Part shown: in pieces, positions 2,822-8,723 of the stretch
Position numbering within the stretch: the stretch's first letter is position 1
Layout: every line of letters begins with the position of its first letter
Assembly: GCA_026400425.1 (NCBI GenBank)
Contig: JAPLPC010000482.1
Span: forward strand, 1 to 32,403
DNA: 32,403 nucleotides
Source: Hyphomicrobiales bacterium
GTDB taxonomy: Bacteria; Pseudomonadota; Alphaproteobacteria; Rhizobiales; Xanthobacteraceae
Reading direction: 5' to 3'
Program-made: the position numbers and the translations under genes
Notes under the pieces: model-generated
Seen by the model: only the letters and a program-made list of their open reading frames with translations
Told to the model about the DNA's origin: nothing
Databases searched by the model: none

Positions 2822-5800
2822 TTACGCCACTTCCTGGTCGAGGATCTTCACTGCGTTTTCGAGATCCACCGACACCAGCTGCGACACGCCGCGTTCCGCC
2901 ATGGTCACACCATACAGGCGATGCATGCGGGCCATGGTGATCGGATTATGCGTGATGGTGATGAAGCGCGTTTCGGTGGTCGCGATCATTTCGTGCAACA
3001 GGCTGCAGAACCGCTCGACATTGTGGTCGTCCAGCGGCGCGTCGACTTCGTCCAACACGCAGATCGGCGACGGGTTGGTCAGGAACACCGCGAAAATCAG
3101 GGCCAGCGCGGTCAGCGCCTGCTCGCCGCCCGACAGCAGCGACAGCGACTGCGGCTTCTTGCCCGGCGGCTTGGCGATGATGTCGAGGCCGGCTTCGAGC
3201 GGATCGTCGCTCTCGATCAGCTTCAGCTCGGCTTCGCCGCCGCCGAACAGTTCGACGAACATCCGCTTGAAGTGACCATTGACCACTTCGAACGACGTCA
3301 TCAGCCGCTCGCGTGCTTCCTTGTTCAGGCTCTGGATGCCGGTGCGCAGCTTCTTGATCGCTTCGACCAGATCGTCGCGCTCGGTGGCGAGATTGTTGTG
3401 CGAGCCCTCGATCTCGTTGAGCTCTTCCTCGGCGCGCAGATTGACGGCGCCGAGCCGCTCGCGGTCGCGCCGCATCTTCTCCAGCTCGACTTCCACCTCG
3501 TGCAGATCGGGCAGCTTGTCGTCCTGGCGCACTTCGGCCATGGCCGCGACGCCGTCCGGCTCCACTTCCAGCATGTCGCGGATTTCGCGCTCGATGTCTT
3601 CGAGGCGGCGTTTGCCGCTTTCCATCCGCTCTTCGGAACGCGCACAGGCCTCGCGCGCCTGCGACAGGAACTCGATCGAGGTGCGAGCCTCGCGGTCGGT
3701 CTCGCGCATCATGTTCTCGGCCGCCTGCAACGCATTGGCCGCGAGCTGTCGCGCCTGCTCGGCATTCTCGACTTCCGAGATCAGCGCGCGGCGCTTCTGC
3801 AGGAACAGCGCCGGGGCGTCTTCCAGCTCTTCGCGCTCGCGCAGCAGTTCGGCCTGCCGCGAGGCTACCGTCTCGATCTGCGATGCGGCCGAAGACTTGC
3901 GGTTCTGCCAGTCGGCGCGCTCGGCGATGATCGCCTGCAGGCGGCGATCGGCGAGCTCTGCCTCGCGAGCCAGCGCCTGCGCCTCGGCGCGCACCTGGGC
4001 GGCGGCACGGCGATGGCCGTCGATCTCGGTGCGCACATCCGACAGCTTGGCTTCGGCCTCGGCAGTGTCAGGCAGCTGCTCCAGCGCCATATGCGCGGAT
4101 TCGAGCCCGGCTTCCGCTTCCATGCGATCGTTGGAGAGGCGCGATTGCGCTTCGGTCAGCGTTGCGCGGCGCGCCGCGTGGCGGTTGATCTCGCGCTCGG
4201 CATTGGCATGACGTTCGCGGGCCTGATCGACGTCGCGACGGGCGTTGCGCAGCGCGTCGCGCGATGCGCCTTCGGCCGATGCCGCAGTTTTCAGCGCAGC
4301 TTCGGCGCTGTCCAGCGCTTCGCGCTTGGCGATGGCGTCGAGCTTGGCGTTTTCCAGATCGGCTTCGATATCAGTGAGGCGGGCGCGTTCGGCGAGGCGA
4401 CGCGCAGCACCGGTCGGCGCATGCGCACCGGCGACAAAGCCGTCCCAGCGCCAGACGTCACCTTCCAGCGTGACCAGACGCTGGCCGGTCTTGAGCTGCG
4501 CGACGAGGGCGGCGCCCTGGTCCTTGGTGACGATGCCGATCTGCTTCAGGCGGCGCTGCAGCTCCGGCGGCGCGGTGACATGCTGCGCCAGCGATTCCAC
4601 GCCGTCCGGCAGCACCGGATCGTCGGCGGGCAGGCCGGCATCGGTCCAGCGCATCGGCGCAGAGGGATCGACGGGGGCATCGAGATCGTCGCCGAGCACG
4701 GCGCCGATGGCCTTTTCATAGCCCTTGGTGACGCTGACGCCGTCGATGATCGGCGGCCACAGATTCTTGGTCTCGCCGTTGAGAATCTTCGAAATCGTGC
4801 GCGCTTCGGTCTCGAGGCGCTGCACCTTCTTGTCGGCTTCGGTCAGCGGCGCGCGCGAGGCTTCCAGCGTCTGCCGGGCGGCCACATGCGCGGTCTCGTT
4901 GTCGCTGACGGCAGTTTCGGCGTGCAGCAGGATTTCCTGCGCGGTCTCCATCAGGGCTGCGAGTTCGTCGAGATCGCCGAAGCCGGAGGTCTGCGCCGTC
5001 AGCGCATCGATCTCGCTCTCGACGCGGCGGATCTCTTCGGAGAGGCGCGTCAGTCGATCGGCCTGGCTGCGCACGTTGGACTGCAGCTGGTTGCGCTTCG
5101 CCGTCATGTCGGCATGCGCGGTGGTGAGTTCGGTGAATGTGCGCTCGGCCGCAGCCAGCACCTGCTCAGCCTCGGAGACGCGGTCATCGACGCCGCCACG
5201 CAGCTCGACGCGCTGCATGATCTCCTCTTTGAGCATCTCGTCTTCTTCGTCGAGCCGCAGCAGCGCGAATTCGGCGTCTTCCGACTGCTTCATTTCGCGG
5301 GCGACGTCGGCCTCGAACTGGTTGAGGCGGCGATCGAGCTCAGCCGCCCGCTCCTTGGCGCGCACTTCTTCGCGGTCCAGCAGATCGCGGGCATTGGTCA
5401 GGCGTTGCAGCCCGGCTGCGGCCGCAGCTTCCGCCTCGCGCATCGCTGGCAGCTCACTGGCGCGGATCGCCTGGATGCGCGCCGATTCGCCCTGGATGCG
5501 TGTCGCTTCGGCGAGTTCGAGCACGTTGCGGTCATGGGTCGATGCAGCATCGGCATTGTCCGCATGCGCCTGGATCCAGCGCAGATGAAACAGCATGGCC
5601 TCGGCCTTGCGCACCTTGGCGGCCACTTCGCGGAAGCGTGTGGCCTGGCGCGCCTGCTTCTTCAGGCCTTCCATCTGGCCGGACAACTGCCCGATCACGT
5701 CCTCGACGCGGGTTAGGTTGGTCTCGGCCGCCTTGAGGCGCAGCTCGGCCTCGTGGCGGCGCGCATGCAGGCCGGCAACGCCGGCGGCGTCCTCCAGCAC

Positions 5801-6533: not shown

Positions 6534-6719
6534 TCAGCCAATGCCCGAGTAGGCTTGAGCAATGCTGAGCGAAACCGATAGGCATCCTTCAATTGCTTCG
6601 CGCAGATTGACCATCAACTCGTCCATGGACTCGCCCTGGCTGGCGCAGCCGGGCATGGCTGGGACCTCTGCCCAGTACCCGCCTTCCTCGGCGTCATGCA
6701 CGATGATCTTGATCTGCAT
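6534..6719 (-). CDS. orphan HicB-like antitoxin protein
   Basis: A 61-residue protein with the HicB partial RNase-H-like fold: IKIIVHDAEEGGYWAEVPAMPGCASQGES followed by MDELMVNLREAIEGCL, very typical of type II HicAB antitoxins. The last 13 residues (SVSLSIAQAYSGIG) do not resemble the usual HicB C-terminus, which suggests a changed or clipped end. No HicA toxin ORF lies on either side, so it is an orphan or a decayed module. The ATG at 6719 is preferred because AGAAG lies 6 nt before it; an in-frame ATG two codons upstream (6725) is possible. Confidence 0.75.
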   Translation of the reverse strand: MQIKIIVHDAEEGGYWAEVPAMPGCASQGESMDELMVNLREAIEGCLSVSLSIAQAYSGIG

Positions 6720-6758
6720 GGTCATCTTCTAATTCAAAGAGCGTGGATCGTATTTGAG

Positions 6759-7103
6759 TTACTTCGGCGTCGCCGCCACGAGCCAGCCGAGCCGCGACAT
6801 GATCGTCAGAACTGCGACTGTCACAGCAAGCCCACCGCTGATCCACCAGCCGATATAGCCTTTGCTCGGCAGATGAGCGATCCGCTCCACGACGGTGGCT
6901 TGGCCGACCTTGAGTTCGGATATGTCCTTGCCGGCGTCCTTGATGACGCTTTTCATCTCGGTGATATCGCTCCTGATATGAGCGACGTCGGCTTCAAGAC
7001 GGGCGACGCGGGCTTCGATCATGGCGTCGAATGTGCTCCCCCTGCCGGGCGGCTGCAAGGGCGGCGCCGGGCGTGCGGCGTGTTGGTCGGAATCGTCCGG
7101 CAT
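6759..7103 (-). CDS. small coiled-coil membrane protein, XhlA-like
   Basis: A 114-residue protein with a Pro-rich N-terminus (residues 1-25), a heptad-like helical segment (about residues 27-80, including IEARVARLEADVAHIRSDITEMKSVI), and one membrane helix near the C-terminus (GWWISGGLAVTVAVLTIM, about residues 87-104). This order resembles haemolysin XhlA and phage holin-associated proteins, but no lysis genes lie nearby. It stands in the accessory block between dsbA and smc and is transcribed away from the ParD-like/MetAP pair. No precise function can be assigned. Confidence 0.65.
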   Translation of the reverse strand: MPDDSDQHAARPAPPLQPPGRGSTFDAMIEARVARLEADVAHIRSDITEMKSVIKDAGKDISELKVGQATVVERIAHLPSKGYIGWWISGGLAVTVAVLTIMSRLGWLVAATPK

Positions 7104-7194
7104 GCAATCTCCCCATCACGCGAGATTAGCGCCTCATGAGAGTCGCACAATCTAAAGTAGATTTCGCGGTTGTGCGGAATTCGACTTTTCCTGT

Positions 7195-7224
7195 TTGCCT
7201 CGGCTCCTGATGTGGATATACGAT
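7195..7224 (+). promoter_or_regulatory. candidate sigma-70-type promoter of the ParD-like/MetAP pair
   Basis: A -35-like TTGCCT (7195-7200) and an overlapping -10 candidate TATACG (7217-7222, 16-nt spacing) or TACGAT (7219-7224, 18-nt spacing). Each box matches consensus at 4 of 6 positions. The -10 lies inside the palindrome at 7216-7243, which would allow repression by a protein bound there. Confidence 0.4.
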
Positions 7225-7243
7225 ACATATATGAATCGTATAT
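7216..7243 (+). promoter_or_regulatory. 28-bp near-perfect palindromic operator
   Basis: Arms ATATACGAT (7216-7224) and ATCGTATAT (7235-7243) surround a central palindrome CATATATG (7226-7233); only one base per half, at 7225 and 7234, breaks perfect symmetry. It ends 9 nt before the ATG of the ParD-like gene and abuts the ribosome site GGAG (7244-7247). Ribbon-helix-helix antitoxins often repress their own operons from such sites, so autoregulation is inferred. Confidence 0.7.
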
Positions 7244-7252
7244 GGAGCCCCC

Positions 7253-7465
7253 ATGGGCATCGTGAGCATCGACGACGATTTGCATGAGCAACTGCGCAAG
7301 GCGACCAAGGTGTCGTGCCGATCGATCAATGCGCAGGCGGCTTACTGGATCAAGATCGGGATGCTCTGCGAGGCCAATCCCGCGCTGTCGTTCACCGAGA
7401 TCCTTGCGCGCGAGATGAGTGCTGCGGGCGTGGCGACGCCGTCGCTGGTGGCGACTGCGGCATGA
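7253..7465 (+). CDS. ParD-like antitoxin-family protein
   Basis: A 70-residue protein resembling the ParD-like family (PF11903): a short beta strand (GIVSIDDDLHEQLRKA) followed by two helices (CRSINAQAAYWIKIGMLCEANPALSFTEI), as expected of a ribbon-helix-helix DNA-binding dimer. The start is well supported by GGAG 5 nt upstream. Its stop overlaps the next gene's start in ATGA (7462-7465), so translation of the two is probably coupled. The downstream partner is a methionine aminopeptidase, not a RelE/ParE toxin. It probably binds the 28-bp palindrome just upstream. Whether it acts as an antitoxin or only as a repressor is unknown. Confidence 0.75.
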   Translation: MGIVSIDDDLHEQLRKATKVSCRSINAQAAYWIKIGMLCEANPALSFTEILAREMSAAGVATPSLVATAA

Positions 7466-8223
7466 CCAAGAAGCCTGAGGAACTGGCGCTGCTGGCAGAA
7501 TCCGGCCGGCTCCTGGCATCGGTGTTTGCGCTGCTGGATCGCACGGAGCTGGTCGGCCGCTCGACGCTCGCCATCAATGACATGGTCGAGCGCTTCATCA
7601 CCCAGGATCTGGCGGCGCGGCCGGCGAGCAAGGGGCAGTATGGCTTTGCATTCGTGCTCAATGCCTCGATCAACGAGGTGGTCTGCCACGGCATTCCCTC
7701 CAGTGCAGATGTGCTGAAGGAGGGCGACATCGTCAACTTCGACATCACGCTGGAGAAGAACGGCTATATCGCCGATAGCAGCAAGACCTATTGCGTGGGC
7801 GCGGTGAACACCGCCGCGAAGCGGCTGGTCGAGGCCACCTATGAGGCCATGTGGCAGGGTATCCGCGCGGTGCGGCCGGGCGCGCGGCTCGGCGATATCG
7901 GCTTTGCCATCGAGCGCCACGCCAAGCGCTGCGGCTATTCGGTGGTGCGCGATTATTGCGGCCACGGCATCGGCCGCGAGATGCATGAGGCGCCGCAGGT
8001 GATGCATTTCGGCAAGCCGAACACCGGGCTCACGTTGCGCGAGGGCATGGTGTTCACCATCGAGCCGATGCTCAATCGCGGCCGCGCCAAGGTCCGCACC
8101 GAGGATGACGGCTGGACTGTCGTGACCGACGACGGTTCGCTGTCGGCGCAGTTCGAGCACACGGTAGCGGTGACGGCAAAGGGCGTGAAGGTGCTGACAT
8201 TGCGGCCGGATGAGCGACGTTGA
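7462..8223 (+). CDS. map: type I methionine aminopeptidase
   Basis: A 253-residue metal-dependent peptidase that removes the initiator Met from nascent proteins. All expected ligands and catalytic residues are visible: His in VCHGIP, Asp in NFDITL, Asp in IADSSKTY, His in CGHGIG and MHEAP, Glu in FTIEPML and Glu in QFEHT. There is no N-terminal zinc-finger extension. The ATG overlaps the stop of the ParD-like gene (ATGA), forming a two-gene unit. Alphaproteobacteria usually carry a housekeeping map elsewhere, so this is likely a second copy with specialised expression (inference). The ORF is open 49 codons further upstream, but that would read through the ParD-like gene in another frame. Confidence 0.93.
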   Translation: MTKKPEELALLAESGRLLASVFALLDRTELVGRSTLAINDMVERFITQDLAARPASKGQYGFAFVLNASINEVVCHGIPSSADVLKEGDIVNFDITLEKNGYIADSSKTYCVGAVNTAAKRLVEATYEAMWQGIRAVRPGARLGDIGFAIERHAKRCGYSVVRDYCGHGIGREMHEAPQVMHFGKPNTGLTLREGMVFTIEPMLNRGRAKVRTEDDGWTVVTDDGSLSAQFEHTVAVTAKGVKVLTLRPDERR

Positions 8224-8262
8224 AGAAGGCGCGTCCGGTGACGTCAGGTTCCGATGCCAGCG

Positions 8263-8376
8263 CTAGATATCGCGCGCCACGCTGTCGGGCCGCGATTGCT
8301 GCGGCGCGCAGAGGGCGGCGATGCACAGGGCCACAAAAGCCAGGCCGATGAAATTCACGACGAGATTTTCAAACAT
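8263..8376 (-). CDS. 37-residue single-pass membrane protein
   Basis: A small ORF supported by a perfect Shine-Dalgarno AGGAGG (8387-8382) 5 nt before the ATG. The product starts MFENLVVNFIGLAFVALC, has one hydrophobic segment (about residues 5-24) and a short polar tail ending SVARDI before TAG. No family is recognised. Upstream features argue it is real: a 16-bp perfect palindrome overlaps the Shine-Dalgarno, a perfect CtrA box lies 43-57 nt upstream and a CtrA half-site at 8456-8463. Genes of this size are often missed by annotation. Function unknown; small single-pass proteins commonly modulate larger membrane complexes. Confidence 0.6.
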   Translation of the reverse strand: MFENLVVNFIGLAFVALCIAALCAPQQSRPDSVARDI

Positions 8377-8384
8377 GAGCACCT

Positions 8385-8400
8385 CCTGAAATATTTCAGG
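8385..8400 (-). promoter_or_regulatory. 16-bp palindrome overlapping the ribosome site of the small membrane ORF
   Basis: CCTGAAATATTTCAGG is a perfect palindrome whose last AGG on the minus strand is the first half of the Shine-Dalgarno AGGAGG. It could be an operator, or an RNA hairpin (6-bp stem, AUAU loop) that limits ribosome access. Confidence 0.45.
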
Positions 8401-8418
8401 ACAATGCAAAGGCAGCGC

Positions 8419-8433
8419 TTAATCACTTCTTAA
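8419..8433 (-). promoter_or_regulatory. perfect CtrA-binding motif TTAA-N7-TTAA
   Basis: TTAATCACTTCTTAA matches the full alphaproteobacterial CtrA consensus exactly. It lies 43-57 nt upstream of the 37-codon membrane ORF, where the -35 region would be. A half-site TTAACCAT is on the minus strand at 8463-8456. Confidence 0.55.
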
Positions 8434-8471
8434 GCGGGCTTACCGAGCCGTTACCATGGTTAATTCCGGCG

Positions 8472-8723
8472 TCAGCGCACGCGCGCCTGCGCCGTCCGCG
8501 GCATTGGGATTTCTGCTTTTAGCGCGGTCTGGCCCTGTGGCGTGATGCGATAGCGCGCCATGCTGCCCGGCGGGGACTCGATCCAGCCCTTCTGCACCAT
8601 ATTGGCCAATGTCTTCTGACCGGCCGGCAGCAGATGGGTGGCGGGGAGTTCGGCAACGCTGCAGAGCTTCTGCAACGCTGTGCGTTCGATGTAATGCGGG
8701 AGGTGGGAAGCGCGTGCGGGCAT
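8472..8723 (-). CDS. small winged-helix-like protein, unknown function
   Basis: An 83-residue protein from the chosen start MPARASHLPHYIERTAL. The body (LQKLCSVAELPATHLLPAGQKTLANMVQKGWIESPPG, then ARYRITPQGQTALKAEIP) has the helix-turn-helix then beta-hairpin look of a MarR/PadR-like winged helix, ending with the common 'RYRITxxGxxALK' wing. It is too short for a complete classical regulator. An in-frame ATG ten codons upstream (8753) is an alternative; neither has a clear ribosome site. Proteins beginning in this way occur in related genomes as I remember, which favours a real gene. Target unknown. Confidence 0.55.
   Translation of the reverse strand: MPARASHLPHYIERTALQKLCSVAELPATHLLPAGQKTLANMVQKGWIESPPGSMARYRITPQGQTALKAEIPMPRTAQARVR

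Follow-up and report, generated by a model that had tools for sequence, protein, structure and literature searches.

A putative autorepressed operon joining an antitoxin-family protein to an accessory methionine aminopeptidase

What is a methionine aminopeptidase (MetAP) doing in a position that a toxin might be expected to occupy? The question is posed by a stretch of 32,403 nucleotides from a Hyphomicrobiales bacterium (GenBank assembly GCA_026400425.1, contig JAPLPC010000482.1; this whole stretch is called the window here), in which the gene for a small protein of the ParD-like family PF11903 runs into a complete MetAP gene behind a palindrome. In this report, we compare the locus with its relatives across the phylum. 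With a probability of roughly 0.6, we read the sequences as those of a self-contained, horizontally moving, autorepressed accessory-MetAP operon that has an antitoxin-type repressor and is not mainly a growth-inhibiting toxin. The two-gene unit is real, widespread and apparently undescribed in the open literature searched. No description of a PF11903-MetAP pair was found in the open-access sources covered, and one candidate, PMC3948609, was discarded, as both terms occur there by chance. The unit is a variant on antitoxin-type autorepressed operons and on second MetAPs.

The locus and its operator

The features of the locus are as follows.

7195-7200, plus strand: candidate -35 element TTGCCT, read from the sequence; it falls short of the sigma-70 scan threshold
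7215-7246, no strand assigned: operator with three TATA cores (7217-7220, 7228-7231 and 7239-7242) at 11-bp spacing, from the motif matrix and shuffles
7244-7247, plus strand: ribosome binding site GGAG, read from the sequence, directly after the palindrome and 5 nt before the ATG of the small protein
7253-7465, plus strand: putative PF11903 ribbon-helix-helix (RHH) repressor, 70 amino acids, starting MGIVSI (PF11903, E 4.3e-19)
7462-7465, plus strand: ATGA overlap between the end of the RHH gene and the start of the MetAP gene, read from the sequence
7462-8223, plus strand: accessory type I MetAP, 253 amino acids, of the group termed clade A below (TIGR00500, 290 bits)

A sequence-only reading of this DNA had proposed a palindrome ahead of a small DNA-binding protein whose gene overlaps that of a MetAP, and the open reading frames, family profiles and repeat analysis confirm that layout. 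The small protein scores 68.7 bits against PF11903 (ParD_like; gathering threshold 23). An AlphaFold2 model places an extended segment at residues 1-7 and helices at 8-21, 25-41 and 47-58, with a mean pLDDT of 74.5. A Foldseek search with the monomer model gave no significant match, so the RHH fold is not confirmed by that route, and a sequence search of the Protein Data Bank returned no relative of the protein. The MetAP gene of the window is an extra copy, because a second, housekeeping-type MetAP, 51% identical to it, is encoded in the same genome (G000:C460:53-754; the assembly has 4.9 Mb in 677 contigs and is 85% complete). The worry that the window might hold the only MetAP of the organism is thus removed. 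Immediately ahead of the pair, the minus strand carries a short HicB_lk/UPF0150-like gene (6534-6725). An Rfam search of positions 6700-8500 and a PADLOC run on the window returned no match.

The palindrome had been described as a 28-bp operator that covers the -10 region and abuts the ribosome binding site. The repeat itself stands: it (7216-7229/7230-7243) is free of gaps, matches at 13 of 14 pairs and ends directly before GGAG, and none of 5000 first-order shuffles of this upstream region reached 13 pairs. Its architecture is better described as three TATA cores than as one palindrome. Across 128 distinct upstream regions, a motif search yielded the consensus TATAYG-N3-CRTATAYG-N3-CRTATA, in which the cores lie exactly 11 bp apart, and TATA-to-TATA distances in the homologous upstream regions peak sharply at 11 and 22. 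Scored against first-order Markov samples, the operator exceeds 99.9% of shuffles in 126 of the 128 regions, which answers the question whether the palindrome is conserved in homologous loci; the window operator scores 42.8, compared with 12.4 for the 99.9th percentile of shuffles. The regular form of the operator, TATAYGNWNCRTATAYGNWNCRTATA, matches 7217-7242 exactly, and this is the sole site with two or fewer mismatches in the 4.9-Mb window assembly.

Combined with TTGCCT, two -10 candidates fall inside the window operator, namely TATACG at 7217-7222 (spacer 16) and TACGAT at 7219-7224 (spacer 18). The sigma-70 scan of this promoter region returned nothing at its threshold, and the promoter call is weak. 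Many of the 128 upstream regions have a TTG 19-21 bp before the operator begins; thus, the first TATA core is likely the -10 region.

The operator separates MetAP-linked PF11903 genes from the others. It was found in none of 36 PF11903 loci that lack a MetAP, where the best matrix score was -3.8 (the median for linked loci is 36.7), and so it belongs to the MetAP-linked clade of RHH proteins. It accompanies that clade even where the partner gene differs. It is present at three loci from the family of the window (L035, L036 and L037) in which the same RHH gene is followed by a small SnoaL/NTF2-like gene in place of the MetAP (a weak Pfam assignment, E 0.009), and also on a viral-collection contig (L198; IMGVR_UViG_2579778904_000002, 915-985) where the RHH gene is divergent from a housekeeping-type MetAP and the operator occupies the short intergenic stretch. 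In 11 of 12 genomes scanned, the operator occurs solely at the RHH promoter, and the twelfth contains no site with two or fewer mismatches. This confinement points to the protein's own operon as the target. From these sequence patterns, we infer that the RHH protein binds the operator; covariation of RHH residues with operator bases gave no clear signal beyond phylogeny. The autoregulation-type operator foreseen by the sequence-only reading is conserved across the phylum and specific to the MetAP-linked subfamily. The 36 loci without MetAP (L056-L091) have upstream repeats of their own, such as TACTACAAATGTAGTA in L056, which look like a different operator.

Pairing, distribution and mobility

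We assembled 177 loci from four sources: the family of the window, the genome collection (its 80 best-scoring places), plasmids and viral contigs. A MetAP lies directly downstream in 135 of the 139 loci whose RHH protein starts with MG[ILV][VI]xI, a proportion that is not a population estimate, since resemblance to MetAP-linked sequences was among the grounds on which these loci were chosen. The co-occurrence of PF11903 and map genes is supported. In 104 of the 139 loci the two genes are separated by -4 nt, as in the window, and in 133 they lie within 20 nt of each other. The pairing spans alpha-, beta- and gammaproteobacteria. The notion that an orphan antitoxin remnant merely came to rest beside a duplicated map gene, although orphan antitoxins are common, is refuted by such pairing across three classes, with two MetAP clades and one operator.

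A sample of 399 genomes of the phylum provides a less biased figure, with adjacency taken from coordinates. PF11903 occurs in 109 of these genomes and the RHH-MetAP pair in 48; the MetAP stands directly beside the RHH gene in all of the 30 best loci. All 48 pair-bearing genomes have at least two MetAP matches; the paired enzyme thus always comes on top of another. A second MetAP without such a pair is present in about 33 further genomes, and the paired kind therefore does not account for every second MetAP. Sinorhizobium megaplasmids (matches H103-H113) encode another group of extra MetAPs, of about 36% identity and without PF11903. Sequences that share 58% or more identity with the window MetAP lie at 35 places in the sample, and identity then drops to 53%. 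An RHH gene accompanies 34 of these 35 clade-A enzymes. The exception (L210; G279:C1:1600819-1601565) is an intact clade-A MetAP in a genome with no PF11903 match. A weak operator-like stretch lies upstream of it (score 11) and may be a relic. No third gene is conserved around the pair, and no metal, oxidative-stress or biosynthetic genes are linked to it.

The pair moves. In the window and two further genomes of one genus (G545 and G586) it lies between smc and dsbA; in two congeners (G289 and G516) the same interval lacks it, and in G460 it is found elsewhere. It is also carried by plasmids of Pantoea, Klebsiella, Rahnella, Acinetobacter, Salmonella, Novosphingobium and others. One such copy (L053; KY984047.1, pAb242_25, 4001-4979), on a mobilizable plasmid of Acinetobacter baumannii, is flanked by transposases and lies about 1.6 kb from blaOXA-58; its operator has diverged (score 4.2). 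In the E. coli genomes the Klebsiella-plasmid pair has no close copy, and the phage collection gave no match. Four IMG/VR contigs encode the RHH protein.

An antitoxin lineage and a remodelled enzyme

The toxin-antitoxin gene order attributed to the locus is indeed that of its relatives. Outside the MetAP-linked clade, a ParE-like toxin gene lies immediately downstream of the PF11903 gene in the majority of the 36 loci (PF15781 was matched at E about 1e-32 in the three examples tested), and a zeta-type P-loop protein does so in six. These toxin-paired genes are often from small-genome assemblies. Partners of zeta-like toxins of the PF11903 type have been reported in mycobacteria (PMC6362051, PMC5728571), by authors who doubted the ParD label, and in E. 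coli one such protein worked as antitoxin within an epsilon/zeta-like pair (PMC5728571). The known systems (M. tuberculosis Rv0366c-Rv0367c, PMC6362051; Mycobacterium sp. MHSD3, PMC5728571) resemble the MetAP pair in the family of the small protein, gene order and short overlaps. They differ in the partner and in the N-terminus of the small protein, which in the MetAP pair is one residue shorter and has a fixed Met-Gly; further, the three-core operator is absent from the 36 non-MetAP PF11903 loci checked. Given that sister groups precede toxins, the MetAP occupies the toxin slot of an antitoxin family. In a tree of few columns, and unrooted, the MetAP-linked RHH proteins form one clade apart from other PF11903 proteins (support 100/99). 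A change from toxin to MetAP is a plausible direction in that unrooted tree.

The paired MetAPs form two supported clades, A (100/100), which holds most of them, and B (100/99). A single origin of both is neither established nor rejected (AU p 0.41), and clade B adjoins housekeeping MetAPs that share its N59 and Y177. In the RHH tree, the partners of clade-B enzymes nest inside those of clade A, which would fit an exchange of the MetAP behind a single repressor lineage. Beyond its core, the RHH protein has a region that is conserved where the partner belongs to clade A and longer where it belongs to clade B. The conservation of this region could mean protein-protein contact with the MetAP, and direct contact is possible.

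The window MetAP retains, in E. coli numbering, the metal ligands D97, D108, H171, E204 and E235 and the catalytic histidines H79 and H178, as had been read from the sequence; all complete relatives have them as well. Judged by its profile score, far above the TIGR00500 cut-off of 171 bits, the clade-A enzyme is a variant member of that family. The variation lies in the P1 pocket that holds the first residue (pocket residues as listed in PMC10724148). In E. coli Map this is C59, Y62, Y65, C70, F177 and W221, whereas in clade A it is S59, Q62, Y/F65, N70, M177 and W221, with F65 in the window. The complete clade-A sequences all share Q62, N70 and M177, and all but one have S59. The window enzyme thus lacks the canonical Tyr62, Cys70 and Phe177 and keeps Trp221, where "canonical" denotes the usual set of residues and not the formal definition of TIGR00500. 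The P1' residues C78, Y/F168, E204, M206 and Q233 are unchanged. Clade A therefore shares with E. coli Map the fold family, metal ligands, catalytic histidines and P1' pocket, but differs by C59S, Y62Q, C70N and F177M, by an overall identity of about 50% and by its operon with the RHH gene. Because the clade-A pocket is at once so conserved and so different, it suggests that recognition of inhibitors or of the first residue has been altered under selection. The clade-B pocket (N59, Y62, C or L70, Y177) is closer to the ordinary one, with Y62 kept and C70 mostly so. The closest entry of the Protein Data Bank matches the window MetAP at 255 bits, well below the clade-A relatives (at least 329 bits), and hence no clade-A structure seems to have been solved.

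What the operon may do

We propose that the PF11903 protein would bind as cooperating dimers to the three TATA half-sites, thereby covering the -10 region and repressing its own promoter. The overlap of the MetAP start with the RHH stop would couple translation and hold repressor and enzyme at a fixed ratio. Loss of the repressor, through proteolysis, on arrival in a new host or upon some signal, could release a burst of extra MetAP, and the returning repressor would shut this pulse off. The accessory enzyme, presumably competent in catalysis, would add to N-terminal methionine excision, and in clade A it would probably do so with an inhibitor or substrate preference unlike that of the housekeeping enzyme. 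A precedent for part of this scheme is YflG of B. subtilis, a dispensable, weakly repressed second type I MetAP whose multicopy expression rescued map mutants (PMC1266368). YflG is likewise under negative transcriptional control, but its repressor, YvoA, is of the GntR type and is encoded elsewhere, with nagAB (PMC1266368), whereas the putative repressor of the window is an RHH protein in the same operon. Counting against the proposed scheme are the L035-L037 loci, where RHH gene and operator stand without a MetAP, the lack of a Foldseek match for the RHH model and the conserved stretch after the RHH core in clade A.

A sharper form of this explanation is that the spare MetAP is induced through the RHH protein when the housekeeping enzyme fails, be it from natural inhibitors, metal shortage or oxidation. 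The constant presence of a housekeeping copy and the spread on plasmids agree with such a role, as does a P1 pocket changed at four of six positions, with both cysteines lost and F177M gained, around intact catalysis and P1'. Yet clade B retains Y62 and mostly C70, and the absence of linked metal, oxidative-stress or biosynthetic genes also speaks against it; we hold this version as a tentative possibility.

The pair could instead be a true type II toxin-antitoxin system that stabilises plasmids, with a remodelled MetAP whose over-trimming or mis-trimming of N-termini is toxic and an RHH protein that blocks the enzyme by binding to it. We deem this unlikely. The toxins that follow sister genes, the demonstrated antitoxin of the epsilon/zeta-like pair, an RHH gene placed first with a short overlap and an apparently autoregulatory operator, the invariant non-standard pocket of clade A and the rarity of a MetAP without its RHH partner (one in 35) are all what such a system would predict, and the plasmid distribution and antitoxin relatives fit an addiction module as well as they fit the operon that we favor. 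But the partner has kept all of its catalytic residues and is closely homologous to an essential housekeeping enzyme, it lies outside the known toxin families and PADLOC does not recognize it, and multicopy MetAPs of B. subtilis rescue rather than kill (PMC1266368). Further, a MetAP is tolerated without the RHH protein at L210, and the near-ordinary pockets of clade B resemble those of some housekeeping MetAPs; both facts count against a killing module, and the first also for an accessory operon. Thus, of the toxin-antitoxin operon envisaged by the sequence-only reading, the gene order, operator and second MetAP endure, while the strict sense of the term is weakened by L210 and by clade B.

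The N-terminus of the repressor invites one more thought. All 135 MetAP-linked RHH proteins, and the four exceptions, begin with Met-Gly, directly before the strand predicted to read the DNA. Toxin-paired PF11903 proteins have one residue more before the strand, usually with S, A, P or T at position 2. A second residue that permits methionine removal was considered as a mark of linkage and rejected, for unlinked proteins are mostly small there too; linked proteins are set apart solely by their fixed Gly and shorter N-terminus. A Met-Gly peptide, MGMM, was the best substrate tested for the B. subtilis MetAPs (PMC1266368). With such a start, the repressor is itself a natural substrate of MetAP and might sense excision: as MetAP activity falls, the repressor would keep its (formyl-)methionine, bind DNA poorly or be degraded, and so turn on the spare enzyme. 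The coupling of one RHH clade to MetAPs of clades A and B and of the housekeeping type (L198) is as a generic activity sensor would allow. Gly at position 2 may also be structural, and that the repressor senses methionine excision in this way strikes us as speculative and improbable.

The accessory operon that we favor goes beyond the earlier reading in its remodelled P1 pocket, three-core operator, two MetAP clades and invariant Met-Gly start. It presents an antitoxin family whose toxin slot, in a large mobile clade, holds a paralog of an essential co-translational processing enzyme. Genes of the MetAP-linked class that are now annotated as "ParD-like" antitoxins are probably repressors. The unusual methionine pocket of clade A is relevant to work on MetAP inhibitors; Klebsiella and Acinetobacter have enzymes of this clade on plasmids, one of which encodes a carbapenemase. 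N-terminal methionine excision is usually treated as constitutive; these operons point to its regulation in bacteria.
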